In this document: piece by piece, positions 460 through 19,212 of the stretch
Layout of the letters: each line of letters starts with the position of its first letter
Position numbering within the stretch: position 1 is the stretch's first letter
IMG/VR virus record: IMGVR_UViG_3300044799_000910
Coordinates: 1-20,950 of that record
Strand: one strand, 5' to 3'
From: a virus
DNA: 20,950 bases
Program-made: the position numbers and the translations under genes
The notes under the pieces: model-generated
Seen by the model: the letters and a program-made list of their open reading frames with translations, nothing else
What the model was told of the DNA's origin: nothing
The model's database searches: none

Positions 460-462
460 GAA

Positions 463-531
463 GATCGGGTGATCGGGCCATCGGACCATCGAACGATCGG
501 GTAATGAACCCGCCTGCCGATGGCCCGATCA
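463..531. repeat. Octamer array with 15-bp inverted repeat
   Basis: Five consecutive 8-bp units run from 463 to 502 (GATCGGGT, GATCGGGC, CATCGGAC, CATCGAAC, GATCGGGT). The 15-mer at 470-484 is matched perfectly by its reverse complement at 517-531, so the transcript can form a 15-bp stem with a 32-nt loop. The same octamer family recurs at 8815-8886 and 15449-15520. There is no U-tract after the stem, so it is not a classical intrinsic terminator. Confidence 0.9.
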
Positions 532-538
532 GCAAGAA

Positions 539-626
539 GTAGCGCCGGGCTTTAGCCCGGCATGTGCTGCCCTGAAGGGCAGCGCTACACGAGCATGTGC
601 CGCCCTGAAGGGCAGCGCTACACGAG
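539..626. repeat. Bipartite GTAGCGC/GCGCTAC hairpin repeat with a tandem 33-bp duplication
   Basis: The unit at 539-588 starts GTAGCGC and ends GCGCTAC. It holds two hairpins, GCCGGGC/GCCCGGC (544-561) and GCTGCCCT/AGGGCAGC (566-583), linked by ATGT. The second hairpin and its flank are then duplicated head to tail: 561-593 and 594-626 differ at one of 33 bases. The final GAG plus the next G forms the GAGG ribosome binding site (624-627) of the connector gene. The same repeat family occurs at 1727-1783 and 9584-9644. Confidence 0.9.
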
Positions 627-632
627 GTTTCC

Positions 633-1109
633 ATGAGCTTCACAACGATTGACGCGGTTGCCGCTCACTATCCGGGATTCCAGCGTGGCATCCCGGATCA
701 GAATCCCTCGGACGCGCAGATCCAGGCCTGGATCGAGAGCCAGAGCGCGCGCCTTGCGGCGCTGGCCATCGGTCGCGGCTACACGCTCGAGGGGCTGGCC
801 ACCTCCAACCCCCAGGCTTACGCCCTGCTCGCGCTCGCCAACGAGGTGGGCGCGGCGGCGGACCTGGGTGAAGCGCTGTTTTCCCTGCTCGGCCCGGAGG
901 CTTCACCCCAGGGCTGGGCCAATCCCAACGCGCTGCGTCGCTCCTACGAGAACATGCTGGCCGAGCTCGCGCGCGGAACCTACGACAAGCTTTTCATCCC
1001 CGGCGCGCGTACTGGCGACGTCTATCCGGGGTTCGGCGGTGCGGCGGGCCAGGAGGAAGACCTGGAAGAAGATGGCAACGCCGCATTTAAGAAGGGGGAT
1101 GTGTTCTGA
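633..1109 (+). CDS. Phage head-tail connector / head completion protein (gp6-like)
   Basis: This 158-aa protein begins MSFTTIDAVAAHYPGF and continues with an all-helical pattern: SDAQIQAWIESQSARLAALA, then ALLALANEVGAAADLGEAL, then a third helix YENMLAELAR. This is the layout of the small helical adaptor proteins (HK97 gp6-like) that form a ring under the portal. The tail is acidic and disordered-looking (QEEDLEEDG). The ATG at 633 has a GAGG site at 624-627 with a 5-nt spacer, and that site is the end of the upstream hairpin repeat. There are no cysteines. Position between capsid and a gpG-like neck protein supports the call. The stop TGA (1107-1109) lies within the first unit of the heptamer array that follows. 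The alternative frame over this region is a GC-rich shadow. Confidence 0.65.
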   Translation: MSFTTIDAVAAHYPGFQRGIPDQNPSDAQIQAWIESQSARLAALAIGRGYTLEGLATSNPQAYALLALANEVGAAADLGEALFSLLGPEASPQGWANPNALRRSYENMLAELARGTYDKLFIPGARTGDVYPGFGGAAGQEEDLEEDGNAAFKKGDVF

Positions 1110-1141
1110 ATTATGAATTCTGAATTGTGAATTCTTAATTC
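1107..1141. repeat. Heptamer array, TGAATTN type
   Basis: Five 7-bp units in exact phase: TGAATTA, TGAATTC, TGAATTG, TGAATTC, TTAATTC. Including flanks (1106-1143) the segment is nearly palindromic (CTGAATTA...TTAATTCAG). The first unit contains the TGA stop codon of the connector gene. A related four-unit element lies at 11155-11182. The EcoRI-like GAATTC words are a by-product of the array. Confidence 0.85.
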
Positions 1142-1183
1142 AGAGACCGTTGCTCGACGCTTTGTGCTTGTTGCGCACCGGAC

Positions 1184-1246
1184 GAGTTTCGCTTTTCGAG
1201 TTTCGCTTCTCGATTTTCGCTTTTCGGTTTTCGAGTTTCGGTTTTC
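1184..1246. repeat. Heptamer array, nine units of GNNTTTC type, flush to a start codon
   Basis: Nine consecutive 7-mers keep perfect phase over 63 bp: GAGTTTC, GCTTTTC, GAGTTTC, GCTTCTC, and so on to GGTTTTC at 1240-1246, all G..TTTC or a single change from it. No reverse-complement arm is visible, unlike most other arrays here. It ends 4 nt before the ATG at 1251 and leaves no purine-rich ribosome binding site. If translation began instead at the in-frame GTG at 1164, the array would be read as a Phe/Arg/Ser-rich leader. Confidence 0.92.
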
Positions 1247-1250: not shown

Positions 1251-1730
1251 ATGATCGAGTTCACCTACGCCGTCAATTCGGAGCCGGTCGAAAACGCGCT
1301 CGCGACGTTCCAGCAATCGCTGGCCGAGCAATCGCCGGCGCTCATGCGCATCGCGGATGACTTCCGCGAGATGATTGCGCAGCAATTCGCGTCTGAGGGG
1401 CAGGCGGAAGGAACACTCTGGGCCGAGCTGGCACCTTCCACGTTCCGCCGCCGGCGCGCCAGCACATCCATTCTCTATGAGACCGGCGCGCTGCTCCGCT
1501 CGCTCACCGGACCTGGCGCCGGCGGGCACGTCGAGGAGCTGGAAGGCTACTCAATCACGCTCGGCAGCCGGCTGCCCTACGCCGGCTACCACCAGACCGG
1601 GACGCGCCGCATGCCCGCGCGGCCCATCATTGTGCTCTCAGGGACGCGCGGCGAGCGCTGGACCGAAATCGTTCGGCGCAGTCTTGAGGAGAAGACACTG
1701 CTGCTTGGGTCGAAGGAACTCGGCTCGTAG
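1251..1730 (+). CDS. Phage virion morphogenesis protein (Mu gpG / HK97 gp10-like neck protein)
   Basis: About 159 aa from the ATG at 1251. The family signature of gpG-like tail completion proteins is readable: LWAELAPSTFRRRR (the 'W..L...T...K' region), then ILYETGALLRSLTG ('L.dTG.L..Si'), then LPYAGYHQTGTRRMPARP ('YA..HQ.G......R'). These proteins act at the head-tail joint or in tail completion. Start choice is uncertain. ATG 1251 gives a product of ordinary family length but has no Shine-Dalgarno, because a T/C-rich heptamer array lies directly upstream. GTG 1164 would add 29 residues read from the repeat. I prefer 1251 because homologous sequence seems to begin there. The stop codon TAG (1728-1730) is the TAG of the GTAGCGC terminus of the next repeat. 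Confidence 0.7.
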   Translation: MIEFTYAVNSEPVENALATFQQSLAEQSPALMRIADDFREMIAQQFASEGQAEGTLWAELAPSTFRRRRASTSILYETGALLRSLTGPGAGGHVEELEGYSITLGSRLPYAGYHQTGTRRMPARPIIVLSGTRGERWTEIVRRSLEEKTLLLGSKELGS

Positions 1731-1783
1731 CGCCGGCCCCGCTCTGCGGGACCGGCATGTGCCGCCCTGAAGGGCGGCGCTAC
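1727..1783. repeat. Bipartite GTAGCGC/GCGCTAC hairpin repeat
   Basis: The first hairpin pairs GCCGGCCCCGC with GCGGGACCGGC around a TCT loop (one C/A mismatch, 1732-1756). The second is GCCGCCCT/AGGGCGGC (1761-1778), after the same ATGT linker seen in the 539-588 copy. The repeat contributes the TAG stop of the gene before it and leads directly into the AAGGA (1784-1788) of the gene after it. Confidence 0.9.
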
Positions 1784-1794
1784 AAGGACTCGAA

Positions 1795-2349
1795 ATGAAT
1801 GTCCGTTACCAGGCGCAATTCGCCAAGCCGCTCGTGAACCAGTTGATTGCCATTCTCCAGCGCGATCAGCAGGCGGCGCTCGACCTGGTCAATGCCGGTC
1901 GGGTGCCAGGGCGCGAGCTCAAGCCCTTCGCCGCATTTCATAAGGAAGTGGTGACGGTGCAGAACTGGCCGGCGCTGGTTCTGGTGGCGCAGGAGACGGC
2001 CTTCGATGCGAACTCTGACGCCGACCTTCGCACCCAAACCGTGCGTTTCCTCTGCGCCCTGGCCATCACGGGCACCGACCCTGAATGGCTGTCGGAAGAC
2101 GCCATGGACTACTTGCGCGCGGTGGACATTGTCCTGACCTCGGCGCCGCTCGCGGACTTCTACACGCCGCTCTCGATCAGCCATCGCACGGTCCCCGAGG
2201 GCGAGACCACGGGGCTCGATTCTGCGGTCTCGAAAATCCGCGACCTGCGCGTCCTCCGGCACGATCTCGGCGTTCTGGTAGGCCGGCGGGGCGGGGGGAT
2301 GGCGCGCGGCCCGCAGATCGAGTTTGTGATTGAGATGGAGGAAAGATGA
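1795..2349 (+). CDS. Probable phage tail terminator / tail completion protein
   Basis: 184 aa. The N-terminal helix (AKPLVNQLIAILQRDQQAALDLV) is followed by a beta segment NWPALVLVAQETAFD, a conserved-looking core LRTQTVRFLCALAITGTDPEWL, and a helix AMDYLRAVDIVLTS. A 'PAL.V' strand, then a strand with hydrophobic alternation, then a helix used to count copies per subject position is what I expect of tail terminators that cap the tail tube. Position after the gpG-like protein and before tail genes fits. The family call is mainly contextual. AAGGA at 1784-1788 with a 6-nt spacer supports the ATG at 1795. The stop TGA overlaps the next ATG by 4 nt (ATGA), so translation is probably coupled to the fibre gene. 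Confidence 0.5.
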   Translation: MNVRYQAQFAKPLVNQLIAILQRDQQAALDLVNAGRVPGRELKPFAAFHKEVVTVQNWPALVLVAQETAFDANSDADLRTQTVRFLCALAITGTDPEWLSEDAMDYLRAVDIVLTSAPLADFYTPLSISHRTVPEGETTGLDSAVSKIRDLRVLRHDLGVLVGRRGGGMARGPQIEFVIEMEER

Positions 2350-5300
2350 AAGAAGGAGTCGGGAGTCAGAAGTCAGGAGTCAGAATGCCGCGGAAGTGGA
2401 CAGTGAACAGTGGACAGTGGATAGCAAAGCGGCTGCTGCAACCCGGCCTTCTGCTGTTCACTGTTCACTGTGCACTATCCACTGCTCTGAGCGCCACGCA
2501 TGTTACTGCCACCTACGACCTGGGCGCGAACCCGCGCGTGATGGCGACGGTGAACGGCACGCCGCAATACGGGCTGGTGTTCGCGCAGAGAAACAAGCTG
2601 GTCACTTATGGCGACGTCGAATACGGCCCAAGTGTGGTGAAAGCCTACCTCAACACCAGCGGCCAACTGAACGACGGCGCGGGCAACCTCTGGCTCGACT
2701 TGATCCCGAACCTGGGCGCCACGCCCGGCGACAGCTATTATGTGCTGACGCTCAACATCCAGGGGCGCGTCCACGCGGAAATCTGGGTTGTGCCTGACGT
2801 GGCCAGCGTCAGCGCGGAAGTCTGCCGCCAGGCCCAGCCACCTTCCTCAACCTCCCCCGCGCTTTTCTACCAGTTCCTCCAGCAAGACGGCGACGACCTG
2901 CCGCAGCGTCAAAAGCTGAATTTCTCCGGCTCCGGCGTCAACTGCGTGGACAACGCCGGACAGTTGCGGACTGACTGCACCGTCTCCGGCGGTGGCGGCT
3001 CCGTCCCCAAGGCTTCAGCCACCAGCTCGGGCACGGTGAAAACCGACACGACCGAGAGCGATCCCGTCGTCTATCTCAAGTCCAGCGCGGACTCCCTGCT
3101 GGCCGCCAAGGCACCACTCGCCCACGGCCACGCGGAATCGGACGTGACGAACCTGGTCACCGACCTCGCCGGCAAGGTGGCGAGTACACGAGCCGTAAAC
3201 ACGACCGCGCCCTTGAGTGGCGGAGGCGCGCTATCCTCCGACCTCACGCTTTCCCTGCCGGCCGCATCCGGCTCCCAGAACGGCTACCTGACTTCCGCCA
3301 ACTGGACAACGTTCAATTCGAAGGAAAGCGCCCTCAGCTTCAATGCGCCCCTCAATCGCTCCGTGAATACCATCTCCATTCCCCAGGCCTCAGGCTCCCA
3401 GAACGGGTATCTGGCGTCTGGCGACTGGACGACCTTTAACAACAAGGTTTCGACTTCGCGCAGCATCTCGACGACCGCACCGCTCTTGGGCGGCGGGAAT
3501 CTGTCGGCCGATCGCACGCTCTCCATTGATTTGTTTGGAACCTCGCCAGGGACTAAGGTTGTCAGCACTTCGCTCGCAGGTGACCCGAGCGCCGACAACT
3601 GCGTGAAATGGTTAGCCGGCGGGAAGCTAGGCGACGCGGGCGCGGCCTGCGGCTCGGGCGGTGGGGCACACAACCTGTTCAGTGCAACGCATTCGGATAC
3701 GGTGGCCACCACACCAGTTCTCGGTGATATTCCCTACGCCAACTCGACTCCTGCGTGGACGAAGCTCGCAGGGAATACAACTACAACCAAAAAATGGCTG
3801 AACCAGACTGGCAACGGTTCCGTCTCTGCTGCGCCACGGTGGGATGCAATTGCAGACGGCGACCTACCCAACACCATCGTTCGCACCTCCCGGAATGTTA
3901 GTACCTCCTCACCTCTTGGCGGCGGTGGGACGCTTGCTTCCGACCTCACTCTGACTTGCCCCACCTGCGAAGTCACGGGGAACAAGAATGCCGCCAATGG
4001 CTATGCCGGCCTGACCGCCAGCACCAAACTCAACGTCGCGCAGGGCCAGGAAGTTTGGGGCCTCTCAGACCTGAGTAACGTGAGTGGCACGAGTGGCTCC
4101 GGCTCGACGGCAATTCTCTCCACTTTGACCGGCCTGGCGGCAAACGATCTGCTGAAATGGAGCGGGTCAAATTGGGTCAACACTTCGTTCATCCCGGAGT
4201 CACAGGTCACAAACCTGACGACCGATCTGGCTGGAAAGGTTCCGACATCCCGCAACCTGAACACCAGTTCGCCCCTCGCGGGTGGCGGCGCGCTGAGCTC
4301 CGATCTTACCCTCACCTGCACTACCTGTGAGTTAACAGGGAACAAAAACGCAGCTTCCGGCTATGCGGGATTGACGTCAGGAACGAAGCTCACGGCTGCG
4401 CAAGGTCAAGAGGTTTGGGGCGTCAGTGACCTCACCGACTACGCGACCAAGAGCGGGACGGGGACGGCGGCCGTTGCCGCTACGTTCACCAGCCTGACCA
4501 CGAATGACGTGGTGACTTGGAACGGGTCGAACTGGATCAATCAGGCCCCTTCAGGCGGTTCCGCCTTCTCCGCCATAACTACTGGCACAAACACCGCAGC
4601 CACAATGACGGTTGGTAATGGGGCAACCCTGAATGGTGCGGCGGGCGGAATCGTTAATCTCTCAGCGCTTACTCCGACGACTGGATTCAAGGTTCCGGTA
4701 GGGGCGGGCGCAGCGCCACTGACTAGCGGTCTGCTGGCTTACGATTCGACGGCCAACGAATTCAAGGTTGGCGTGAATGGCGCAACGAAAACCTTGGCGC
4801 GAGCCGACGGTAATATCACCGGCACGGCGGCGGGACTCTCGGCAACCCTCGGGCTGGCCACTGGCGGGACGAACCAGACTTCATGGACGAGTTCGCGATG
4901 CGTGCAAGTAAATTCCGGTGGAACCGCATTGGAGTCAGCGGCGGCGGCGTGCGGCTCGGGCGGCAGTGGAGACAACATCTCGGTCAATGGCACGGCCGCG
5001 ACCGACGCGGATTTCGATGATTCGACCCCGGCGGCACCCGCGAACGCCATCAATGTGAAGTGGCAGAAGGACGCCTCGACCCCGACCAACATCTCGGCTT
5101 ACTGGCTGAGCACCGCCGTGGGCGTGACGATTTTCGGCAGCGGTTCAGCCTTCACTTGGTCATTCGACGATGATGCCGCGACGAGTCCCTCTATCGGCTT
5201 TTCGGCGGGTGGGATTACTCTGACCGCTACGGGGACGAACCAGAACGTGACGCTGACCCCCAGCGGCACCGGCGTCGGCAAGGTAGCCTCGAACACCATC

Positions 5301-8206: not shown

Positions 8207-8806
8207 ATGGCTAACGTGGACGTTACCAAGATTCACCAGGGGCCGGGCAAGCTGTGGCTGAGCGTGAACGTTCCAGCGAGCGGCAGCCGGCTCCTCATCA
8301 ATACCGCGGGGGAGCCCACCACCGGCACACCCGTCTTCGCCGGAGCCACGGAGGGGGCGGCAACGGTGGTTCTGACTCCCAAATTGGAACAAATCTCCGC
8401 CGACCAAGTCGCCGGCGCCATCGACGTTGTTATGACCGGCGAAGCGGAGTCGATTGAGGTCACCCTGAAGGAGTCTGACCTGGCGAAACTAAAACACTTC
8501 ATCGTGCACGGCTCCTTCTCGTCAGGGACCGATACGGGCCTGCCGCCGGGCGTGCAGAACTACGAGGAGATCTCCTTCGGCGGGGTCATGACCATTCCCA
8601 AGACATCCGTAGCGGTGATCTCGCCGCGACGCGACGGCGCGAATAAGTACGTGGTGAGCCAGCTCTACCAGGCTTATCAGGCCGAGGCCATCCAGCTTCC
8701 CTTCCAGCGCGGCAAAGAGACCACCTACAAGGTGAAGTTCGAAGGTCTCGCCGATCCCTCGCGCGCCGCGGGCGACCAGGTGGGGAAGATTTACCGGCAG
8801 ACGTAG
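8207..8806 (+). CDS. Phage major tail (tube) protein
   Basis: 199 aa. The start MANVDVTKIHQGPGKLWLSV is followed by strands and a core VVLTPKLEQISADQVAGAIDVVMTGE, then ESIEVTLKESDLAKLKHFI, and a C-terminal KVKFEGLADPS. The 'NV..V..GPG.L......P' opening and the 'E....E..I....TGE' strand pattern match tail-tube proteins seen in many siphophage clusters. The place immediately before a tail-assembly chaperone pair and a tape measure is the canonical one for the major tail protein. GGAGG at 8197-8201 with a 5-nt spacer is the strongest Shine-Dalgarno in the cluster, fitting a highly expressed structural protein. There are no cysteines. Stop TAG at 8804-8806 is followed 8 nt later by an octamer array. 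Confidence 0.7.
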   Translation: MANVDVTKIHQGPGKLWLSVNVPASGSRLLINTAGEPTTGTPVFAGATEGAATVVLTPKLEQISADQVAGAIDVVMTGEAESIEVTLKESDLAKLKHFIVHGSFSSGTDTGLPPGVQNYEEISFGGVMTIPKTSVAVISPRRDGANKYVVSQLYQAYQAEAIQLPFQRGKETTYKVKFEGLADPSRAAGDQVGKIYRQT

Positions 8807-8814: not shown

Positions 8815-8886
8815 GATCGGGTTATCGGTCCATCGAACCATCTATCCCTCGATGAACCGATGATCCGATGAATCGATGGAGGGATC
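8815..8886. repeat. Octamer array with inverted halves, nine units
   Basis: Nine 8-bp steps fill the gap: GATCGGGT, TATCGGTC, CATCGAAC, CATCTATC, then the reverse-complement type CCTCGATG, AACCGATG, ATCCGATG, AATCGATG, and GAGGGATC. The phase is unbroken through the turn. The junction of units eight and nine creates GGAGG (8878-8882), the ribosome binding site of the chaperone gene. Confidence 0.9.
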
Positions 8887-8887: not shown

Positions 8888-9370
8888 ATGTCTAGGAATG
8901 GCATTGCGTCCGCTGGGGACTGGCGAACGGCGGCGCAAGCGGCACGCGAGGCGCACGCCGAGCCGCTGGTGTTGCCGAGCGGCGCGACGATTCTCGCCCT
9001 GAAGCCGGAACCGCTGGAGTGGATCATGTCGGGGCGCATCCCGCAACGCTTGTTGGCGGCGGCGCTCCAGGGCGACGGCGCGCTCTCGCCCGAGGCCGGA
9101 AGCCAAATCAGCCGCGAGGAGATTCTGGACCTCGCCACTTTCGCCGCCCAACTCGTGAAGGCCAGCGTCGTCCGCCCCGCCATCGGCGAGGGGCCGGACG
9201 ATATCCGCCTGGACGATATCCCCATCGAAGACCGGGCCTTCATCTTCGAATGGGCGTGCCGCGCCCTGGGCCGGCCCGCGCCAGGTGGCGCGGGCGTGCG
9301 TGACCCGGCCTCGAGTTCCGTGCCGCAGGAGGTCTCCAGCGACAAGCTGGAGCGGTTTCGTGCGTACTGA
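8888..9370 (+). CDS. Phage tail assembly chaperone (upstream frame)
   Basis: 160 aa from ATG 8888, chosen over the in-frame ATG at 8876 because GGAGG at 8878-8882 sits 5 nt before it. The segment EPLVLPSGATILALKPEPLEWIMSGRIPQRLL matches the 'v.LPSG..v.lr.p....l..G.iP' opening common in tail assembly chaperones of siphophages. The C-terminal part is acidic and helical (DDIRLDDIPIEDRAFIFEWACRALG). It lies between tail tube and tape measure, the usual place of the G/GT pair. The chaperone coats the tape measure and recruits tube subunits in the cytoplasm. A downstream ORF in another frame (+1 or -2 relative) overlaps its end, which raises programmed frameshifting; see the next entry. Confidence 0.65.
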   Translation: MSRNGIASAGDWRTAAQAAREAHAEPLVLPSGATILALKPEPLEWIMSGRIPQRLLAAALQGDGALSPEAGSQISREEILDLATFAAQLVKASVVRPAIGEGPDDIRLDDIPIEDRAFIFEWACRALGRPAPGGAGVRDPASSSVPQEVSSDKLERFRAY

Positions 9371-9715: not shown

Positions 9716-10672
9716 ATGCCAACGAACACGGCTGCTGAACTCTTGATTCGCATCGGCGCTGACCCCACGAGCGCCGAGGCCAGCATCGAGCGCTTCCGCG
9801 CCAGCTTCTCGCGGGATCTTGCCGGCATCGGCTCGGACCTCAACCGCTGGTCCGTCCAAGGCTTTGGGGATTTCAGCCGGGTGCGAGGCGCCGTCCTCAA
9901 CTTGAGTGGCGCCTTGACCCAGACCGCGCAAGCGATGCCGCCGCTGAACGGGCAATTGGGACTGGTTGACCAGACCGCCCAGCGCCTCGGCGACCACTTC
10001 GATGTCAACCTGGCCGCGGTGAACAATCTGCTGAACCAGAACCGGCAGGTAGCCCAGCGCTGGAAGACTGAACTGGTGGCGAGCTTCGTGGAAGTGCTGA
10101 ATACCTCTCAGGCGCTGAGCTCCAGCCTGGTGCGAAGCTTCGTGGTCTTCGACTCCGCGCTGGGTGTGAACATTGCCAACGCCATCATCTGGCAGAAATC
10201 CATCGGCGAGGCCTTCCGGAAGGCGGCGCTCCAGGCGGTCACGTCGATTGCGCAGGAGGCCCTGGTGCGCGCCATCTACGCAACAGCACTGGGGTTCTAC
10301 CTGCTGGCCATTCAGGACTATCGCGGTGCGGCCCTCGCCTTCAAGTCGGCGGCGACGTACGGAGCGGTGGGGGGAACTGCGGCGCTTGCGGGGCGCGCTC
10401 TGGCGGGGCCCGAGGTGCGCGAGGGCGAACAAGGTGCCGTCGCTCGCCGACCGGGCGAGGTGGCGCCGGAACTGATCGTCACCGGGACAAGCGCGCAGGG
10501 TCAGGAAACCGCCGCGACACAAAAGACCGTGCAGGTCATTTTCCAGGGGCCGGTGTACGGCGGCCAAGCCGGCATCGACGAGCTGGTGCGTCATATCTCC
10601 GAGGCCGTCACCGACCGCGATGTGAACTTGGTGGCGTATACCGTGGTGCGGCAACCAGCCACGCGCGCGTGA
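9716..10672 (+). CDS. Tail tape measure protein, unusually short
   Basis: 318 aa. The N-terminal LLIRIGADPTSAEASIERFRASFSRDL is a typical tape measure opening, a short beta strand followed by a long helix. A helical central region rich in Ala/Gln/Leu (QTAQRLGDHFDVNLAAVNNLLNQ) precedes hydrophobic helices (IAQEALVRAIYATALGFYLLA, AVGGTAALAGRALAG). The C-terminus VQVIFQGPVYGGQAGIDEL resembles the beta-containing end of tape measures ('i.i.gpv.g....ve.l...i..a'). Position after the chaperones is diagnostic. Family members usually exceed 600 aa. At roughly 1.5 angstrom per residue (the lambda relation), 318 aa would specify a tail of about 50 nm. ATG 9716 has only a weak GGTGA at 9708-9712. No frameshift or internal stop is seen, so it is short rather than broken. 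Confidence 0.7.
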   Translation: MPTNTAAELLIRIGADPTSAEASIERFRASFSRDLAGIGSDLNRWSVQGFGDFSRVRGAVLNLSGALTQTAQAMPPLNGQLGLVDQTAQRLGDHFDVNLAAVNNLLNQNRQVAQRWKTELVASFVEVLNTSQALSSSLVRSFVVFDSALGVNIANAIIWQKSIGEAFRKAALQAVTSIAQEALVRAIYATALGFYLLAIQDYRGAALAFKSAATYGAVGGTAALAGRALAGPEVREGEQGAVARRPGEVAPELIVTGTSAQGQETAATQKTVQVIFQGPVYGGQAGIDELVRHISEAVTDRDVNLVAYTVVRQPATRA

Positions 10673-10677
10673 GAGCC

Positions 10678-10754
10678 GGGACTTGGGATTAGGGTTTCGG
10701 GGTTTGGGAAAGGAGCACTTCCGAGTCCCGAGTCGCGAGTCCCGAACCCCGAGA
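10678..10754. repeat. Heptamer array with inverted halves, eleven units (GGGACTT type)
   Basis: Eleven 7-bp steps in continuous phase: five G-rich units (GGGACTT, GGGATTA, GGGTTTC, GGGGTTT, GGGAAAG), one turn unit GAGCACT, five complementary units (TCCGAGT, CCCGAGT, CGCGAGT, CCCGAAC, CCCGAGA). It starts 6 nt after the tape measure stop and ends 11 nt before the next ATG. The first 14 bases match the element at 16014. Confidence 0.93.
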
Positions 10755-11154: not shown

Positions 11155-11182
11155 CTGAATCCAGAATTCTGAATTCAGATTT
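11155..11182. repeat. Short heptamer array, CTGAATT/CAGAATT type
   Basis: Four in-phase 7-mers: CTGAATC, CAGAATT, CTGAATT, CAGATTT. They fill nearly the whole 33-nt gap between 11152 and the ATG at 11186. The central GAATTCTGAATTCAG is near-palindromic and shares its words with the array at 1107-1141. It leaves no Shine-Dalgarno for the next gene. Confidence 0.8.
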
Positions 11183-11368: not shown

Positions 11369-11382
11369 GGAAAGGCGAAAGT

Positions 11383-11438
11383 GGGAAGTAGGAAGTTGGA
11401 AGTAGGGGCCAATTTCCTACTTCCTATTTCCTACTCCC
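11383..11438. repeat. Heptamer hairpin, RGGAAGT / TAYTTCC type, eight units
   Basis: Left arm GGGAAGT, AGGAAGT, TGGAAGT; turn AGGGGCC, AATTTCC; right arm TACTTCC, TATTTCC, TACTCCC, all in one 7-bp phase. Arms 11383-11406 and 11115+300 region 11415-11438 pair over about 23 bp with a single-base bulge and two mismatches. It is followed by AGGTGA (11445-11450), which serves the GTG start at 11458. Confidence 0.92.
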
Positions 11439-11457: not shown

Positions 11458-14400
11458 GTGACGAAACGGGTAAAAGATTTCTGGCCGGGAGACTTCGAGC
11501 GCGACCTGAAGCGAACCCTCGGCTGGCTCTATAGTCGGCAAAACGCGCCGTGGGATAACTGGCAGGGAAACGCGCGCGGCACGAATACGACCCCCAGCCT
11601 TTGTCAGTGCGGCATCCTCTCAACCGCCGACCTTTCGACTTTCGCGCAAGCCGCGATGGAAAACATCGTCTTCGACGTGCCGCCGGGCATGACGGAGGAC
11701 CTCACGACCGGCCCGGATGGTTTCCCCCTCAACTACTCGCCCACGCTTCTGCCGCGCGGCTACATCTTCCTCAACACCTTCCAGCATACTTACACGCTCA
11801 CGGTGACAGGGCGCTGCTTCTCGCTGCTTCAAGTCGCGAGCAATTATCGCGTCGATTTCTTCGTCTGGACCGACCAGTGGTATTACAAAGGCAGCACCTC
11901 GCTCGTTGACGCCAGCGGGGGCATGGCCACCTGGAGCCGGCAAATCAATTTCTACAGCTATCCGGGCGCCTTGCTCGCTGTCCTTTATCCCACCTCCATT
12001 GCCCAGCCGCCGAGTGACTGGGAAGGCGAGACCCTGCCCGCTGGCTGGAAGGCCCACAGCAATATGGGTGTCGGCAAGAAGCTCGTGAACTACAAGGCGC
12101 GGGTCTACGACCGAACCAACGTCGAATACCTCAAGGAAGATGACATCCCCATCATCGTCCAGGACCGCTGCCACGCGCGGGCCGGCTCGGCCAAGGCCTC
12201 CGGCTCAGGCACGCCGACCATGCACATTGTGTGGAATGATCCGGTGGTAGGCTGGCGGCGGGTTTTCACTTCGCTGCAGCAGCTCGCGGTGATTGACGAC
12301 CTCCCGCGCTCGCTCGAGGTGCCACCTTCTGACCCCGAATTTGCGCCGGATGTCACCTCAGTCAAACCTTTCCGAGTACAGAACCGCTCCTGGATCTACG
12401 ATGCCGCTCTGGCGATCATCGCCTATGCCTATGCGGGCAACTTCCTGGGCGCCCTGCGCATTCTGGATCGCCTGAAGAAGCATCTCGACGAGCAGAAATA
12501 TCTGGCCGCAACGACTTTGGAGAATTGCGAAGATGGCTCCATAGCCCGTTGGACGAAGGCAGGCGATCCCGGTGCTTATCTGGAGACCTTCAACGACCCC
12601 CTGCGCGAGCCTTACGGCGGCGGCAAGCAGATGAACTTTCACGCCGCCGCGGCAGGAGACAACTTCACCTACATCGGCCCGGCGGTTTACGGCAATGGCC
12701 TACCCGACTCGGCCGATTTCATCATTCAATGGCAATTTCGCGCCGCGGCATCGATGACCTGGCAGTTTGAGGTCAGCCTGACCACAGAGCACAACAACGT
12801 TACCAGGCTGAAAGTGACAAGCGACCCGGCTGGCGATCCGACCTACGACAGCGGCACCAAGACCATCACCTACACCATCGGCCCGAGCGAGAACGACTAT
12901 GTCTTCTGGAAATTTGATCTGAAGGCACTCTGCGCTGAACTCGCTTCCGACACTTGGATCTCGACGACGGGCTTCAAAGTGGTCCTGAATCAGGCAGGGG
13001 GGCTGTACTTCGATAACCTCAGCTTGGGCACCTACCAGCCGGCAGGCTCACTCAGCTTCTCCTACGATGTGTTTTACGGGCTTCCCGACCAGTTTTATGT
13101 TCGCACCGGCGCTATGGCCTGGCTTTGTTATGCCTACGCGCTCTACATGGAGTTGACCGCAGATTACACGCCGGCGCTTACGCTCCAGCGGATGCTGGAT
13201 TTTATCTTGACCCTGGAGTCGAGCGACCCGGACCTGCGCCAAGGGCTGTTTTATGGCGGCTTTGGCGAGTATGAAGACCCCGGCTATCATTACGTTCCCG
13301 GCCTCTGCGCCTGGTGTTCCACGGAACATAACGTTGACCTCTATTTCGCCTTTAAGCGCGCTGCGAGAATCCTCCCCCTAGCCGCTACAGAACTCTTGAC
13401 GCGGGGCACGATTACCGGTGCTCAGGCCACGTCACTCAACACGCTGGCGACGACAGTTGACAGCAAAGCGGCCAACGTTAAGACGAAGATCCTGACCAAT
13501 CTCTACATCGCGCCGGGCGCCGATCCCGGCCACTTCGCCCAAGGCGTGCAGGATGATGGCACGCTGGACACGGCGGTGGCCCTGGACGCGGCGGGCACGT
13601 GGTCAGCGATCTTCTGCCACGAAGTGGGCGACGATACCAAAGCCACTGAGTGCCTGAAGTTCGTCTATCAAAAGCTTTATCTCACCAACAAGCAAATCGT
13701 GAAATCGAGCCAACCCAACAGTTGGAACATGGCTTATGAGCAACTCACGCCGTTTGATGGCTTCAAGCCCTACGGCACGGGCTATTCCAATCCGCCAGCG
13801 TCTGTTTGGCAAGAGGGGACCTGGGGCGTGATCAGCGCGCTCTTGCGCTGCCAGGATGTGGCCGGCGTGCAAAGCTATTTCGCGAGCGTCGAAGGCTCCC
13901 TGGACGCCTTCCTGACCAAACTGGTGCGCGGGCAGAAGATCATCTTCTCGACCACCGGTGACGGATCATTGCTCAATTACTCCCTTGCCTCGCGCAGCCT
14001 GCCGTATGAGTTCAGCGTGTGGGCAGGCATCGCCTCCACGGCGTGGCTGTGGCTGACGGCGCAGAATCCCACACTGCTGCTGGCCGCGGAAACCACTTGG
14101 GAATTGCGGCCGTATTTAAGAGTTCCGCGCGGGGTGGAGCAGAGCATTGACCAACTGGAAGGCCAAGGCTCCATCGGCGCGCTCGAACTCGAAGCCATTG
14201 ACGGCGCGGGCTACCTAACCGGGCTCGCCAGCGGCGGGAAGCTGGAAGGCAGGAAGGTGACGCTCAAAGTCGGCTATCCCGGCTTGACGTCCGCGGAGTT
14301 CGTCACTCTGGCTACGCAAGAGATTGAGGCCGTCACCACGCTGGGCGATCTGACCGGCTTCGTGCTTAACTGCCGCGACTTGAAACGCACTACCAAGGCG

Positions 14401-15450
14401 AAAGTGTTCCAAAAGGGCGATGACGGATTTCCGATTTCCCGCGACCACCCCCGAACGCTTTCCGCGAACCCGATGGATGTCTGCCTGATCATCTTGCAGA
14501 ATGAGCTCGGCATCGGCCAGGTGCCCGGCGCGCCGCCCTCCGCGTGGAACATTTACGATCCCGCGCAATGGTCAGGGGGATTGAATCCCACCCTCATCAA
14601 CCCGAATCCTTATCTGGACGTCGAGGGGTTCTTGTCTTACCGCAACAGCATCTTCGCGGGGTACGTCTTCGACTTCCGTTTTCAGGAGCCCGTCGAGGCG
14701 AAACAATTTCTGGAATACGAGATGTTCAAAGTCCTGGGCGGCTACCTCATCGTGCTGGCGGACGGCCGACTCTCACCACGCTTCTTCGTGCCGCCTTACA
14801 GCCTCCTGGACCTCTTCAGCTTCAGCGACCGCAATATGACCGCGCTGCCGGGGGTCGAGCGGCACGCGATCATCAACCAAGTCACGTACCGGATGGACTA
14901 CGATGGCTCGAAGTTTCAGACCGAACTGCTCTTTCTCTATGCTCCGTCGCTCCAACAATTCGGCCTGGCGGGCCAGCACACAATTGAGTCGAAGGGCATG
15001 AAGCTCACACGCGGCGGGGCGTCGCTCGCCGGCATCACGGCGAATCGCATCTTCAAACGCTACGGCGGCCTCGACCCGGTTTCCGGCCAGGCCATGGGCG
15101 GAGCATCAATCCTCCACCTCAGGACGCAGTACCTGACGCTCACCGTGGAGGTCGGCGACTTCGTTTACGTCAATCATCCGCTGCTGCCGAACTTCCTTAC
15201 CGGACAACGTGGCATCTACAACCGAATCTTTGAAGTGATCGAGCGGCAGCCGAATTTCAGCGAAGGCATGATGACGTACAAACTGCTCGACACGAGTTGG
15301 ATGGCTTCGAAGAAAGTCTCGCGCGTAGCGCTGGATGGCACGTTGGCCTGGCCCCAGGCCACGCCCGCCCAGCGCGAGCGCTACATGTTTGTCTGTGCTC
15401 ACGCGACGAAGCAGTACAGCGACGGCACGGCAGGCAAGACTATCTGGTGA
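11458..15450 (+). CDS. Tail hub protein fused to a putative (alpha/alpha) toroid carbohydrate-active region
   Basis: 1330 aa, GTG start with AGGTGA at 11445-11450 (7-nt spacer). Three parts can be seen. Residues 1-300 are beta-rich tail-like sequence. Residues about 300-880 contain repeated helix-pair patterns of (alpha/alpha)n toroid glycosidase-like proteins: WIYDAALAIIAYAYAGN (312), YVRTGAMAWLCYAYALYM (about 545), CSTEHNVDLYFAF (620-632), SVWQEGTWGVISALLR (782-797). Glu623, Asp627 and Glu786 are candidate acidic residues. A beta-sandwich insert (about 352-525, ending LYFDNLSLG) resembles a carbohydrate-binding module. Residues about 880-1330 (SIDQLEGQGSIGALELEAIDG, LEGRKVTLKVGYPGL) look like the hub or gpJ-like body. 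Likely role: baseplate hub carrying an enzyme against the cell surface or a capsule. Enzyme class is not assignable from sequence by eye. Confidence 0.6.
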   Translation: MTKRVKDFWPGDFERDLKRTLGWLYSRQNAPWDNWQGNARGTNTTPSLCQCGILSTADLSTFAQAAMENIVFDVPPGMTEDLTTGPDGFPLNYSPTLLPRGYIFLNTFQHTYTLTVTGRCFSLLQVASNYRVDFFVWTDQWYYKGSTSLVDASGGMATWSRQINFYSYPGALLAVLYPTSIAQPPSDWEGETLPAGWKAHSNMGVGKKLVNYKARVYDRTNVEYLKEDDIPIIVQDRCHARAGSAKASGSGTPTMHIVWNDPVVGWRRVFTSLQQLAVIDDLPRSLEVPPSDPEFAPDVTSVKPFRVQNRSWIYDAALAIIAYAYAGNFLGALRILDRLKKHLDEQKYLAATTLENCEDGSIARWTKAGDPGAYLETFNDPLREPYGGGKQMNFHAAAAGDNFTYIGPAVYGNGLPDSADFIIQWQFRAAASMTWQFEVSLTTEHNNVTRLKVTSDPAGDPTYDSGTKTITYTIGPSENDYVFWKFDLKALCAELASDTWISTTGFKVVLNQAGGLYFDNLSLGTYQPAGSLSFSYDVFYGLPDQFYVRTGAMAWLCYAYALYMELTADYTPALTLQRMLDFILTLESSDPDLRQGLFYGGFGEYEDPGYHYVPGLCAWCSTEHNVDLYFAFKRAARILPLAATELLTRGTITGAQATSLNTLATTVDSKAANVKTKILTNLYIAPGADPGHFAQGVQDDGTLDTAVALDAAGTWSAIFCHEVGDDTKATECLKFVYQKLYLTNKQIVKSSQPNSWNMAYEQLTPFDGFKPYGTGYSNPPASVWQEGTWGVISALLRCQDVAGVQSYFASVEGSLDAFLTKLVRGQKIIFSTTGDGSLLNYSLASRSLPYEFSVWAGIASTAWLWLTAQNPTLLLAAETTWELRPYLRVPRGVEQSIDQLEGQGSIGALELEAIDGAGYLTGLASGGKLEGRKVTLKVGYPGLTSAEFVTLATQEIEAVTTLGDLTGFVLNCRDLKRTTKAKVFQKGDDGFPISRDHPRTLSANPMDVCLIILQNELGIGQVPGAPPSAWNIYDPAQWSGGLNPTLINPNPYLDVEGFLSYRNSIFAGYVFDFRFQEPVEAKQFLEYEMFKVLGGYLIVLADGRLSPRFFVPPYSLLDLFSFSDRNMTALPGVERHAIINQVTYRMDYDGSKFQTELLFLYAPSLQQFGLAGQHTIESKGMKLTRGGASLAGITANRIFKRYGGLDPVSGQAMGGASILHLRTQYLTLTVEVGDFVYVNHPLLPNFLTGQRGIYNRIFEVIERQPNFSEGMMTYKLLDTSWMASKKVSRVALDGTLAWPQATPAQRERYMFVCAHATKQYSDGTAGKTIW

Positions 15451-15520
15451 TCTAGTGATCGGGTCATCGGGCCATCTAAAGATCGCCCGATGATCCGATG
15501 GCCCGATGGGGAGATATATA
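15449..15520. repeat. Octamer array with inverted halves, nine units
   Basis: Nine 8-mers span 72 bp: GATCTAGT, GATCGGGT, CATCGGGC, CATCTAAA, GATCGCCC, GATGATCC, GATGGCCC, GATGGGGA, GATATATA. CATCGGGCCATC (15465-15476) is matched exactly by GATGGCCCGATG (15497-15508). The stop TGA of the hub overlaps the first unit and the ATG at 15522 follows the last unit after one base, so the array is the entire gap. GGGGAG (15508-15513) provides the ribosome binding site. Confidence 0.93.
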
Positions 15521-16013: not shown

Positions 16014-16104
16014 GGGACTTGGGATCCGAGGTTCAGGGCTCGGCCAGAAAATGCTCGCCGCAATTTCCCGAGCCTCCACTCCCGAGTCCCGAAAGCCGAG
16101 GCTC
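16014..16104. repeat. Heptamer array with inverted halves, GGGACTT type
   Basis: A 7-bp phase holds across 13 steps. The G-rich left units are GGGACTT, GGGATCC, GAGGTTC, AGGGCTC. Three turn units follow. The right units are ATTTCCC, GAGCCTC, CACTCCC, GAGTCCC, GAAAGCC, GAGGCTC. GGGCTCGG (16036-16043) pairs with CCGAGCC (16068-16074). The left end CCGGGACTTGGGAT is shared with the element at 10676. The last unit carries GAGG (16098-16101) as ribosome binding site for ATG 16109. Confidence 0.88.
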
Positions 16105-16108
16105 TAGC

Positions 16109-16771
16109 ATGGCTATCGTTCGAACTGTTCTTCCACGCAAAGGAATCATTCAGCCGAAGCACGGCGACAACTACGAGACGGATCTGGACACCAACTGGGA
16201 GTTGCTCGACTCCCTGTTGCAGGACGCCGCAGACGTCCAGGCAACGGTGCTCGCCGCCGGGACGGTCGAAGCCTGGTTGCTGGATCTCAACCTTTCCGGC
16301 GTCATCAGCGGGTTCCAGCTTGGCACCTCCGCTGATCTGACCCCGACGCTGTCGCTTGGGGTGCTCTACGCCCAGGGCAAACGTTATGCGCCGGCCACGG
16401 CACCCAATCCCGGCCCAGCGCCCGCTGAGTCCACAAGCTACCTCTGGTATAACTCGGCCAGCGGCTTCTACTACAACTTGACCGGATCGCCCGCTGCCAA
16501 TGGCGACGCCTACCTAGGCAGCGTGACCACCGATGCGACGCGCGTCACCGCGGTGACCACCGCCACGAAGATCTATGCGCACGTTCCGGTGACGGCGCCA
16601 GCGGCGGGGAGTCTCAACGTCGAGCACCACCTGGGCCGTGCTCCGCTGGGAGCTCTGATCTGCATGACTTCGAGCGGGGGCGTCTGGTTTCAGTCCTCAA
16701 TGTGGGACGGCACGAATCTCTATCTGGTGGCTTCCGAGGCGGGGGTCACCGCGAAGGTGCTGCTATGGTGA
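16109..16771 (+). CDS. Fibre / tail adaptor protein
   Basis: 220 aa from ATG 16109, preferred over an in-frame upstream start at 15914 that would overlap the previous gene and read through the heptamer element. The N-terminus KHGDNYETDLDTNWELLDSLL is typical of proteins starting phage tail-fibre modules ('..P..G........d.N..liDs.l'). The middle GVLYAQGKRYAP...SYLWYNSASGFYYNLTGSPAANGDAYLGSV resembles the repeated fibre-shaft or adaptor pattern 'yvyvd..G.......P..g....g.v.t'. The C-terminus (HHLGRAPLGALICMTS...SMWDGTNLYLVASEAGVTAKVLLW) is a small beta domain. GAGG at 16098-16101 comes from the preceding array. Its end overlaps the tailspike gene by 7 nt. Probable role: joins the tailspike to the baseplate. 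Confidence 0.6.
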   Translation: MAIVRTVLPRKGIIQPKHGDNYETDLDTNWELLDSLLQDAADVQATVLAAGTVEAWLLDLNLSGVISGFQLGTSADLTPTLSLGVLYAQGKRYAPATAPNPGPAPAESTSYLWYNSASGFYYNLTGSPAANGDAYLGSVTTDATRVTAVTTATKIYAHVPVTAPAAGSLNVEHHLGRAPLGALICMTSSGGVWFQSSMWDGTNLYLVASEAGVTAKVLLW

Positions 16772-19212
16772 CGGGAACTGAGAAAAGGAAAGGCAAAGGT
16801 CAAGAGTTGAAGGTTGAAAGTTCAGCGTTCAAGGCCCTGCTTGGCCTGCTGTTACTTTCAACGTTCAGCTTTCAACTTTCAACGGCGCACGCCCAACAGC
16901 CACAGACTTCTGTGGCGCCTATCTTCAGCGCCAACGCGAAGTATGTCCAGGGTGTCGGCCCGGGATACTGGCCGACAGCGGGCGCCGGGCTGACGCTGAA
17001 CCTGGCGCCTGGCACGGCCTACTGTGGCAATCCGCCGCTGCTGGTCACCTACGCCGGTGGCTCGCTGGCGATGACAGATGGAGCCACGAATTACGTTTAT
17101 CTCGACCCGGCCGCCTCCTGCGCGCCAGCGAAGAACACGACGGGCTTCGCGGTGGGGGTCATCCCCCTGGCGAAAGTAGTGACGGCGGGCGGGGCCATCA
17201 CGAGCATCACGGACGCACGGGGCTGGTTCGCGCCCCTGCCCTGCACCATGGGCTCGACGGGGGCCGTCACTTGCGCGGCCCTCGGCACGAACCAAAACAT
17301 CAGCCTCTCGCCCAGCGGCACAGGCTACACCAGCATCGGGAATAGGCTCCAGACGCCGTACTCCTACTACGCTGAATGGGGCGCGGATGACGTGGAGATT
17401 GCGGCCAATCATGACGTAGACTTGGACCTCCTGAAGGACCCCAGCAAGAGCTCGTGGGACCTGTGTATTTCTTGCGGTGGAGACGAGGTCTCTGCCTGGC
17501 GCGCGGCGCCGACCGCGGAGACCCCCTCCTTTGTGAAGAAGTGGAGCATTGGCTACGACGGCATCGAGAGAGTGGAACAAAACATCCTCGCACCCCGCCT
17601 TAACGACGTGCGCTACGCCAACCAATTCCCCACAATTCAGGCCGCCATCGACGACCTGCCCAGCACCGGGGGGATGGTCATTATTCCGCCGGGGGAATAC
17701 TTTACAGATACGATTGTCCTTCCGCCCAGCCCGAAGATTGTGCATCTGGTGGGCGCGGGAATTCGGGCCACCACCCTGCGCGCCAATGCACCTAACATCC
17801 CCATCCTCAAATTGGCGGCGGGAGACAACGTGGAGGGCGACGTCTTCTCCGGGTTCTCGGTGCAGGCACACGCTTCGGGTTCGACCGGACCGGCCATTGA
17901 TATGTCGGGCATGCGGAGCGCCGTCTTTGAGGACATTGGCTATCTGAGCAACTTTAGCGCTAATTTCAATTCCTTCTTTCACCTGGCGTCCTATCCTGGA
18001 TACTCCTATGGGAACATCATCCGTCACCCCGTGGTGCAAGGCCAGACGGGCCCGCCCACGGTGTTTCTCTTCGACAGTGGCGGAACGGGTGACCCTGACA
18101 ACAACCCCAACGCCAATGCCATCTACGATCTTTGGGTCAACGGGAACAGCGGCATCACGACCGTGATCGATGCCCGGCGTTCGGCCATGAGCACCATTAG
18201 CGGGGGGTTGGTGGAGAGCAATCCCGGGGCCGTGGTGCTCATTCCGGGCACTCACACCGTCTTCGAAAACGTCTGGATGGAACTGAACGCCGCGACGCCC
18301 GTGGTACCCACCAGCGGAAGCGACGGCTCGTCCAACGCCGTGAAGTTCTTGAACAACTATATCAGTTCGGCGTTCACCCTCACCTTGCCCGCCTACATCG
18401 ACAACTGGCTAATCTGGGGCAACCATCCTGCCGCGAACCTGACCGTGGTGGATTCAGGCTCCAACAACATCGCCCAGTACGGCGCCACCTTCCAATCCGG
18501 CAAAGCGGCGGCGGAATTAGTGCTGAGTAACACGACCGCAGGGGGCCGCGATTGGGGGTTGCTGTTTCACGGTACCGGCGGGGCCTATCCGGGAGCCTTG
18601 GTCATCAAAGACAAGACCAACAACTTGAAACGCTTTGGCTTGGAGCCAACCCAGAATGTGCTGGCCGCTCCGGCAACCGATGGACTGGCACTGCGGCTGG
18701 TTCCTTTTGATGACACGACGCCGACCAATGCGGTGTTGTCGCTCACGGACGCTGGGCAGACGACCACGAAGCTAGCGTTTCGCAAGAACGGGCAGATTAA
18801 CTCCAGCGTCCCCAGCGGCACGGCACCCTTCGTCGTGGCCAGCACTACGCCGGTGGCCAACTTGAGCCTGAGCGGCGGGCCCGGCACTTCGGTTTCTGTG
18901 GCAAAGCTTTTGACGCCGGTCAACACCGTTGCTTTCTCTTCCACGCCGGACTTCGACGCCAGTTTGGCAAATACGCACAAGATTACACTGACGGGCAATG
19001 TGACCAGCTCGACGCTTTCGAATGCCAGCGCCGGGCAGACCATCAGCTTCCTGATCTGCCAGGACGTAACCGGCGGGCGGACGTTCACTTGGCCCACGAA
19101 CGTCTTGGGCGGGATGACCATCGGCTCGACCGCCTCCAAATGCAGTGCGCAAACTTTCATCTTTGATGGCACAAATGCCTATGCCCTCAGCCCCGGCGTG
19201 ACGAATATGTAG
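16765..19212 (+). CDS. Beta-helix tailspike (pectate-lyase-like) with repeat-encoded signal peptide
   Basis: 815 aa from ATG 16765 (AAGGTG at 16754-16759), overlapping the previous stop. Residues about 24-43 (ALLGLLLLSTFSFQLSTAHA) form a hydrophobic core ending in an AHA site followed by QQP, a good signal peptidase I site. It is encoded by the heptamer hairpin 16804-16883. Residues about 60-160 are a fibre adaptor region (TNYVYLDPA...GFAVGVIPLAKV). GTNQNISLSPSGTG matches the large fibre. From about residue 288, FPTIQAAIDDLPSTGGMVII plus GEYFTDTIVLP is the classic start of a pectate-lyase-3 type right-handed beta helix, running to about 560. The C-terminus (LTGNVTSSTLSNASAGQTIS, then RTFTWPTNVLGGM, DGTNAYALSPGV) is a trimerisation-like beta domain. 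Likely surface-polysaccharide binding or depolymerising. Confidence 0.75.
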   Translation: MVTGTEKRKGKGQELKVESSAFKALLGLLLLSTFSFQLSTAHAQQPQTSVAPIFSANAKYVQGVGPGYWPTAGAGLTLNLAPGTAYCGNPPLLVTYAGGSLAMTDGATNYVYLDPAASCAPAKNTTGFAVGVIPLAKVVTAGGAITSITDARGWFAPLPCTMGSTGAVTCAALGTNQNISLSPSGTGYTSIGNRLQTPYSYYAEWGADDVEIAANHDVDLDLLKDPSKSSWDLCISCGGDEVSAWRAAPTAETPSFVKKWSIGYDGIERVEQNILAPRLNDVRYANQFPTIQAAIDDLPSTGGMVIIPPGEYFTDTIVLPPSPKIVHLVGAGIRATTLRANAPNIPILKLAAGDNVEGDVFSGFSVQAHASGSTGPAIDMSGMRSAVFEDIGYLSNFSANFNSFFHLASYPGYSYGNIIRHPVVQGQTGPPTVFLFDSGGTGDPDNNPNANAIYDLWVNGNSGITTVIDARRSAMSTISGGLVESNPGAVVLIPGTHTVFENVWMELNAATPVVPTSGSDGSSNAVKFLNNYISSAFTLTLPAYIDNWLIWGNHPAANLTVVDSGSNNIAQYGATFQSGKAAAELVLSNTTAGGRDWGLLFHGTGGAYPGALVIKDKTNNLKRFGLEPTQNVLAAPATDGLALRLVPFDDTTPTNAVLSLTDAGQTTTKLAFRKNGQINSSVPSGTAPFVVASTTPVANLSLSGGPGTSVSVAKLLTPVNTVAFSSTPDFDASLANTHKITLTGNVTSSTLSNASAGQTISFLICQDVTGGRTFTWPTNVLGGMTIGSTASKCSAQTFIFDGTNAYALSPGVTNM
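16804..16883. repeat. Heptamer hairpin (GTTGAAA / TTTCAAC) encoding the tailspike signal peptide
   Basis: The left arm, read as GTTGAAG, GTTGAAA, GTTCAGC, GTTCAAG (16806-16833), and the right arm TTTCAAC, GTTCAGC, TTTCAAC, TTTCAAC (16856-16883) match as reverse complements at about 22 of 28 positions, around a 22-nt loop. It is translated: left arm ELKVESSAFK, loop ALLGLLLL, right arm STFSFQLST, directly before the AHA cleavage site. Degenerate purine-rich 7-mers may extend it upstream to about 16780. Confidence 0.9.

Follow-up and report, generated by a model that had tools for sequence, protein, structure and literature searches.

The window, i.e., the whole stretch of 20,950 nucleotides analyzed (positions 1 to 20,950 of IMG/VR record IMGVR_UViG_3300044799_000910), carries head, neck, and tail genes of a phage, and short tandem arrays of 7- or 8-bp units were found in the gaps between genes (Table 1). 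Relatives were found with the tail tube protein as query; the same query gave no cultured phage relative in INPHARED by tblastn. The CorA gene is probably host flank. The phage host is a soil bacterium.

Table 1. Genes, arrays, and palindromic repeats of the window
Feature	Position	Strand	Remarks
Major head protein, C-terminal part	1..459	+	phrog_1005
Octad dyad, ATCGGGYC / CGATGGCCCGAT	464..532		immediately 3' of the major head protein gene stop codon
REP-like palindromes, two in tandem, GTAG-tagged, GCCCTGAAGGGC type	539..626		compare GTAG REPs (PMC3733652)
Heptad array TTCTGAA/TGAATTC, self-complementary	1104..1141		
Heptad array CGNNTTT, 9 units	1183..1246		end adjoins ATG at 1251
Phage virion morphogenesis / neck protein	1251..1730	+	PF05069
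REP-like palindrome pair, GTAG-tagged	1727..1784		neck-g1795 gap
Heptad array AGGAGTC (CAGRAKT class)	2354..2385		
Heptad dyad AGTGGAC / CTGTTCA	2395..2484		overlaps start of 2346-7364 protein
Major tail (tube) protein	8207..8806	+	phrog_2175, phrog_885
Octad dyad ATCGRRYC / CGATGAAC	8816..8880		3' of tail tube gene; orthologous array in L001
Heptad dyad GGGATTA / CCGAGTC	10677..10753		3' of gene 9716-10672
Short heptad array CTGAATT, marginal	11155..11176		3 units, score 9 (below 9.5)
Heptad dyad AAGTAGG / TTCCTAC	11379..11435		
Octad dyad ATCTAGTG/ATCGGGCC / GATGGCCC	15442..15509		
Heptad dyad AGTTGAA / ACTTTCA	16801..16883		overlaps start of 16702/16765-19212 fibre-like protein
CorA Mg2+ transporter	19326..20387	+	71-76% identical to Terriglobia MAG proteins, G001-G003

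Periodicity and position of the arrays

The first-pass annotation had listed twelve sites with an exact 7- or 8-bp period. Ten of them hold as arrays, i.e., 463, 1107, 1184, 2354, 2396, 8815, 10678/10721, 11383, 15449, and 16804/16854, whereas the site at 11155 is marginal and the signal at 16014 falls below the array score threshold of 9.5. Further exact arrays were found at 2454 (with 2396) and 11414 (with 11383), and the window alone holds at least eight distinct words. Chance periodicity was ruled out, because 30 second-order Markov shuffles yielded no high-scoring segment at periods 6-11. In the window and its relatives, periods 7 and 8 were prominent, and periods 4, 5, and 9-13 were near zero.

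In 49 of 86 cases, the first array follows 1-7 nt behind the stop codon. Periodic arrays were present in 37 of 76 orthologous gap instances of relatives. Neither outcome that the first-pass annotation had named as refuting was therefore seen, i.e., a signal no stronger than in shuffles or a lack of periodicity in the orthologous gaps. Occupancy is not obligatory, as the other 39 instances had no array; the L001 gap orthologous to 15442..15509 (about 34 nt) is one without. Orthologues of the 1183..1246 array in L001 and L002 differ in unit number. In the 1104..1141 array, the first unit takes in the TGA that ends the preceding gene, and this striking overlap at 1104-1109 may be a coincidence. 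Nucleation of arrays from a coding end by microhomology was considered and rejected, because the lag-7 excess is weak (0.35 vs 0.22-0.33 at other lags). The gaps are filled variously, i.e., by heptad dyads, octad dyads, or REP hairpins. The palindromes at 539..626 are not heptads and represent a second class of small element, which shares its gap with the 464..532 dyad.

Dyad layout, words, and turnover

The proposed arm, turn, and reverse-complement arm were recovered as a general layout. Among 254 arrays from phage and prophage loci, 60% had a reverse-complement partner within 160 nt at a score of at least 0.7, against 2% for reversed, 7% for complement, and 5% for same-strand controls. The arrays lie on opposite strands with short and variable spacers of 0-112 nt. 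At IMG/VR CAGRAKT loci, almost no array had a partner when two exactly matching units were required (2/62), and the profile-based partner measure gave 21% vs 3-6%. An unbroken phase through the turn did not emerge as a rule; the in-phase register was best in 21 of 143 separately detected period-7 dyads (20.4 expected), with turn-merged dyads, e.g., 8816-8871, excluded. The two arms have a word in common but not the order of its unit variants (0.832 vs 0.828 +/- 0.002 in unit-permuted controls), which does not support the idea that one arm was lately copied to the letter from the other. Of the 86 phage dyads, 70 begin with the purine-rich arm (p = 3e-9).

Words do differ between loci, as had been noted, but the conclusion that copy-paste does not explain them is partly wrong, because words recur in families and full-length copies exist. 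Across all loci, 236 arrays contained 119 distinct words, compared with 205 +/- 4 when words were permuted, and a few words dominate. TCAGRAK is the commonest class, and GGG is absent from most words. Because the words are strongly non-random, the suggested enzyme that would measure length and ignore sequence found no support.

The word lexicon is recurrent and common to the phage arrays and Acidobacteriota chromosomes. Three tandem CAGRAKT units were present in 22 of 199 genomes, and a composition-matched scrambled word in one of 199. Arrays resembling 2354..2385 occur at dozens of places in host genomes G001-G003, TGAGGAC matches number in the hundreds in G067, and G049 and G018 hold array families with common arms or turns, with dyads nested within dyads in G018. 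The arrays are therefore not phage-specific; they are present in hosts at lower density, with an approximately sixfold higher density in phage gaps than in the gaps of the sampled host stretches.

Same-word orthologous arrays differ by exact 7-nt indels (L008/L011 and L009/L011). Within arms, unit similarity falls over lags 1-4 from 0.85 to 0.81, 0.78, and 0.74 (201 arrays), and the difference between lags 2 and 4 is 0.071 +/- 0.007. These two results bear out the slippage that had been proposed. Its companion, template switching as the source of the arms, is allowed by the data and not demonstrated; the same word in a different unit order is expected if the arms turned over separately after birth.

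L008 and L009 are 91.8% identical in nucleotides outside the arrays, yet they carry different words in the same gap. A word is in common in 13% of same-gap pairs vs 2.6% of different-gap pairs. Non-orthologous full-length copies, turn included, were found in L015 (2979-3063 vs 5064-5149, 84%) and L012 (2731-2807 vs 12641-12718, 85%; 12150 vs 12901, 79%), i.e., copies at non-homologous sites as in transposable elements and MITEs. Alignments of the L008/L009/L011 array gaps and of the dyad copies showed no obvious target duplication. Because no clean pair of empty and filled sites with a target duplication was found, insertion as such falls short of proof.

Comparison with known repeats

In many bacterial genomes, no long simple repeat is more abundant than heptamers, for which we know of no accepted origin or function. 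The STRR sequences of cyanobacteria are heptamer arrays of a single direct-repeat word, patchy in distribution and often just 5' of start codons. The present arrays are likewise imperfect, multi-copy 7-bp tandem units in mostly intergenic positions, but they are not limited to one or few words per genome. The patchily distributed TAACTGA repeats, known from Beggiatoaceae, Cyanobacteria, and Bacteroidetes, often lie just 5' of start codons and are a single direct-repeat word, with only one indirect repeat in the Beggiatoaceae genome studied (PMC4679880). Compared with STRR and TAACTGA repeats, the arrays here have dyads and many words.

Heptamer arrays and inverted pairs are already known from Xanthomonas and Geobacter, and the opposite strands and short variable distance of those pairs were found here also. 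GGGNATC repeats of Xanthomonas and Nostoc are dispersed, few-unit, imperfect, and mostly intergenic, with 70-75 cases of arrays facing on opposite strands (Rehm et al. 2015, PMC4692102). They have one G-rich word per genome, read as G-quadruplexes, were absent from the plasmids examined, and were not reported from phages or with word swapping (PMC4692102). Their polarity is as here, i.e., the sense strand lies close to stop codons and the antisense strand close to start codons (PMC4692102), whereas our arrays have many words, mostly without G-runs, plus octads; G-runs in each unit, as in G-quadruplex repeats, were not found. In Geobacter metallireducens, the consulted part of the source describes tandem octamers GTTGCTYN or heptamers MTYCTGA as opposite-strand pairs at variable distance in one genome, and that part does not report turnover, copies, or phage occurrence (PMC2700814). 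Read on the other strand, MTYCTGA is TCAGRAK, the commonest word class here.

REP/BIME and TIR elements are small gap dyads tied to Y1 (RAYT/TIRYT) transposases (PMC3733652). The heptad dyads inspected lack the GTAG/CGTC tag, whereas the elements at 539-626 and 1727-1784 are tagged.

Origin of the arrays

We give about an even chance to the reading that the arrays are dispersed dyad-symmetric heptad and octad elements of the Acidobacteriota (Terriglobia) host lineage, which colonize insertion-tolerant gaps of the phage late operon. This reading is drawn from period and dyads above chance, unit indels, the decay of similarity with lag, copies, word swapping, and the host lexicon. Slippage would add and remove whole units. 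A strand switch on a short array, i.e., hairpin template switching, could create the arms, which would then turn over separately by slippage, keeping the word and scrambling the unit order. No memory of unit order is left between the arms, which makes the strand switch a matter of inference and counts against this reading. Whole dyads may spread via copying between repeats and phage recombination, which would also swap the element of a gap with flanking genes unchanged. The proximity to stop codons would mark sites where insertion spares genes and ribosome-binding sites. Neutral copying does not predict the purine-first polarity, which counts against this explanation. Given length steps of seven letters, copying, and word differences between close phages, the arrays can be considered a fast-moving form of a repeat known in outline.

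It is unlikely, in our view, that the heptad dyads make up a small mobile element class of their own, marked by period, dyad, and a loose word grammar without fixed sequence, copied between loci by a dedicated activity, with the word re-tuned in each lineage and signal peptides created by insertion at start codons.

A dedicated mobile-element system, e.g., an unrecognised transposase or reverse transcriptase copying heptad dyads, would fit the full-length copies, the hundreds of dispersed one-word matches in one genome, and the nested dyads of G018. Array-positive genomes also have more Y1 transposases (6.3 vs 2.4), a difference confounded by lineage and genome size. However, a heptad array lay within 1 kb of only one of 20 Y1 loci in array-bearing genomes, and most of these loci have REP/TIR-type inverted repeats. 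The array-bearing G020 and G028 have no Y1 match. On these grounds a Y1/RAYT transposase, the one candidate gene family covered, was rejected as the mobiliser. No target duplications were seen, and a dedicated system appears rather improbable.

Regulatory sites were also considered, i.e., word classes as tandem recognition motifs (core plus spacer) under selection for a DNA- or RNA-binding regulator, with cooperative opposite-strand pairs. Word classes recur with the same core, stop and start codons are near the arrays, and variation clusters at certain positions (2612 vs 2153 +/- 32, inflated by turn-crossing arrays). In Geobacter metallireducens, the opposite-strand pairs were annotated as sites where a global regulator is predicted to bind (PMC2700814). 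But each genome has many word classes, phages 92% identical carry different words in the same gap, same-gap pairs seldom have a word in common, about half of the relatives' gap instances lack an array, and a fixed motif would not lead one to expect similarity decaying with unit distance. We hold such sites to be quite unlikely.

Another possibility is selection for an RNA hairpin of any sequence past the stop codon, for mRNA stability, processing, or translational insulation, with heptad dyads and REPs interchangeable. The alternation of heptad dyads, octad dyads, and REP hairpins and the adjoining stop codons agree with it, and the folds of array gaps are more stable than those of shuffled sequence (mean z -2.9). 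Several array gaps fold poorly, however, with z > 0, and both array and stable fold are missing from several orthologous gaps (e.g., tube-8876 of L005 and L006; big2-15522 of L001). The 7/8-bp period and the lexicon are left unexplained, and little probability is given to this reading. Known RNA families were also looked for, and Rfam models gave no match at the gathering threshold.

Seven has been proposed as the preferred slip length for heptanucleotide repeats, and pure polymerase slippage from local sequence, without dispersal, agrees with the exact indels, local unit similarity, and dominance of period 7, but it is highly improbable, given the dyads, the copies with a common turn, and the same words at unrelated loci, with scrambled words nearly absent, for which slippage alone cannot account.

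The phage clade is a natural experiment, in which the same gaps of small syntenic genomes are refilled repeatedly with words that differ. The inherited features (gap, period, and dyad) can be told apart there from the changing one (word), and local slippage by itself is ruled out as a full account. The clade is also a dense place for seeking the array machinery.

To our knowledge, neither the saturation of a phage with such arrays nor the swapping of words nor signal peptides encoded by arrays have been described before. Translated, a purine-then-pyrimidine dyad gives a charged and then a hydrophobic segment, and a dyad placed over a start codon would thus be read as a signal-peptide-like N-terminus. 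Such N-termini were predicted at the arm-turn-arm of 2395..2484 in the 2346-7364 protein and at the dyad of 16801..16883 in the fibre-like protein. These translated dyads show a concrete route from repeat DNA to a protein start.

Phage genes and the arrays in their gaps

Late genes of a tailed phage are carried by the window, an IMG/VR viral contig of 20,950 bases, several long tail or fibre genes among them (table). Relatives of the tail tube were encoded at 15 IMG/VR loci and at 12 loci of Acidobacteriota MAGs; cultured phages in INPHARED gave no match to it. Three of the nearest of these MAGs (G001-G003) are Terriglobia. A Terriglobia-like acidobacterium is the most likely phage host, judging from the CorA of the window, whose homologues in these three MAGs are 71-76% identical. 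The CorA itself would be host flank.

Features of the window and their positions
Feature	Position	Remarks
Major head protein, C-terminal part	1-459	phrog_1005
REP/TIR-type palindromes, GTAG-tagged	539-626; 1727-1784	
Neck protein	1251-1730	PF05069
Tail/fibre-type gene	2346-7364	predicted N-terminus mprKWTVNSGQWIAkrllqpgllLFTVHCALSTalsa (capitals, array-encoded)
Dyad-encoded start of this gene	2346-2510	
Tail tube	8207-8806	
Tail/fibre-type gene	16702/16765-19212	predicted N-terminus ELKVESSAFKallgllLLSTFSFQLSTaha (capitals, array-encoded)
Dyad-encoded start of this gene	16765-16900	
CorA and PilZ-like protein	right end	

Arrays of period 7 and 8, i.e., heptads and octads, were detected in the window by both TRF and a lag-match score, and none of equal score was found in 30 Markov shuffles of it. 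Periods 4, 5 and 9-13 were close to zero in the window and its relatives. Ten of the 12 array loci listed in the first-pass annotation stand, 11155 is marginal, and 16014 fails the threshold. The dyad layout described there, i.e., an arm, a turn and a reverse-complement arm, was borne out. A reverse-complement partner scoring at least 0.7 was found for 60% of 254 phage/prophage arrays, by a measure that runs too high for self-complementary words, against 2% with reversed profiles, 7% with complemented ones and 5% with same-strand ones. Outside the phage clade such partners were rarer: host DNA had them for 47% of 34 arrays, other Acidobacteriota for 41% of 32, and other viral contigs for 21% of 201. 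The phase had also been read as often unbroken through the turn. However, arm register was random (21 of 143 dyads in phase, 20.4 expected, dyads merged across the turn being omitted), and those loci with unbroken phase therefore have it by accident.

Array density, counted per 10 kb of gap as delimited by naive ORFs, was 103 in the window, 90 in the phages, 16 in the DNA sampled from G001-G003 and 8 elsewhere in the Acidobacteriota. Among 86 cases with a mapped phage gene end upstream, 49 had the array starting 1-7 nt past the stop codon. Purine content was higher in the first arm than in the second for 70 of 86 phage dyads, the clear exceptions being nearly all TCAGC- or CAGT-type words. Some Acidobacteriota that carry related phages (L022, L023, G007-G009) serve as a natural negative control, since period-7/8 arrays are scarce or absent in their phage locus or in the host DNA sampled.

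Exchange and copying of words

Orthologous gaps of the window and six relatives (L001-L006) were lined up, and dyads of different words were found in one position. The gap between the head gene and g633 holds octads ATCGGGYC in the window and L002, TCAG-type heptads in L003, AGTGACG in L004, GGGATTA in L006 and a palindrome of another kind in L001. An array was present in 37 of 76 gap instances; a common word was found in 13% of same-gap pairs versus 2.6% of different-gap pairs, values that vary with the array threshold. The contrast was starker in the L008-L012 clade. Outside arrays, L008 and L009 have 91.8% identity, but they carry unrelated words in several gaps; words are therefore exchanged in whole. 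Same-word gaps of L008, L009 and L011 differ by exact 7-nt insertions or deletions, so array length changes in whole units.

The earlier claim that copy-paste fails to explain the loci is right only in part, because the families are many, not one. Dyads from different gaps of one phage align end to end, turn included, in L015 (84% over 87 nt) and L012 (85% over 78 nt; 79% over 99 nt). Copies were also found in hosts. In G049, arms of one family run CATTCTT, CATTCTG, AATTCTG, AATTTCG, CTTTTCG, a succession that recurs at many sites. Copies with a common turn are present in G018, as are dyads nested in dyads. No insertion event in progress was seen among the compared metagenome contigs, MAGs and sampled, incomplete host DNA.

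Unit identity within arms dropped with separation, i.e., 0.85, 0.81, 0.78 and 0.74 at lags 1-4 (201 arrays; lag 2 minus lag 4, 0.071 +/- 0.007), as expected if units are altered copies of their neighbours. Both arms of a dyad have the word in common, but not the order of unit variants. In a possible scheme, strand switching on a short array would give two arms, and separate slippage in each would then keep the word and lose the variant order.

Y1 transposases, the one protein family covered by the machinery search, numbered 6.3 in array-positive genomes versus 2.4 (p = 6e-5; per Mb, p = 0.002). A heptad array lay within 1 kb of one of 20 Y1 genes in array-bearing genomes. Most of the 20 are flanked by REP/TIR-type inverted repeats, a class also present in the phage gaps. 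Y1 enzymes probably move REP-like palindromes, not heptads. In gaps of the window and L003, GTAG-tagged palindromes of this kind sit beside heptad dyads; the L003 elements (GGGTGGCGCACACA...) are similar to an inverted repeat flanking a Y1 transposase in G001 (CGCGGGTGGCGCATACC...).

Gene starts, word lexicon and published arrays

Two tail/fibre-type genes start inside a dyad, and both predicted N-termini are signal-peptide-like. In several relatives, an equivalent hydrophobic stretch comes from other words, ahead of the conserved mature start.

Heptamer arrays have been published from many bacteria, including inverted pairs in Xanthomonas (PMC4692102) and TAACTGA arrays (PMC4679880). Paired hepta- and octamer arrays are described from Geobacter (PMC2700814), and one consensus given there, MTYCTGA, is the commonest word class of the present arrays. 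Polymerase slippage was proposed as the cause of the 7-nt preference (Mrazek et al. 2007, as cited in PMC4679880). In a limited literature search, in which absence is no proof, no precedent was found for such filling of phage gaps by arrays, for the exchange of words between orthologous gaps, or for signal peptides encoded by arrays.

The lexicon is restricted: 236 heptad arrays used 119 canonical words versus 205 +/- 4 after permuting letters within each word, and CAG/CTG, GAA/TTC and TGA/TCA were enriched 2.1-2.4 fold. Three exact units of CAGRAKT were found in 22 of 199 Acidobacteriota genomes (48 matches in one), whereas the scramble CRAKGAT occurred once. Four units gave 55 stretches in IMG/VR, and the scramble 9. 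Preferred words differ by genome; among the matches listed, those of G049 were all CAGAATT and those of G181 all CAGGAGT. In G067 (8.3 Mb), three exact units of TGAGGAC matched 730 times, often as facing pairs with 60-130 nt between, and this genome is a good one for studying array spread.

Other periods and palindromes were seen in places. The L012 gap near 8979-9515 (alignment columns 2456-2650) has a dyad of 9-bp-like periodicity (words ACGCAGATT / ACACGAAGG) where relatives hold 7- or 8-bp arrays, and many 9-bp arrays occur in several IMG/VR loci (L213, L235). In L008-L012 gaps, small palindromes TCCCGCCGCGGCGGGA adjoin heptad dyads or form their turn.
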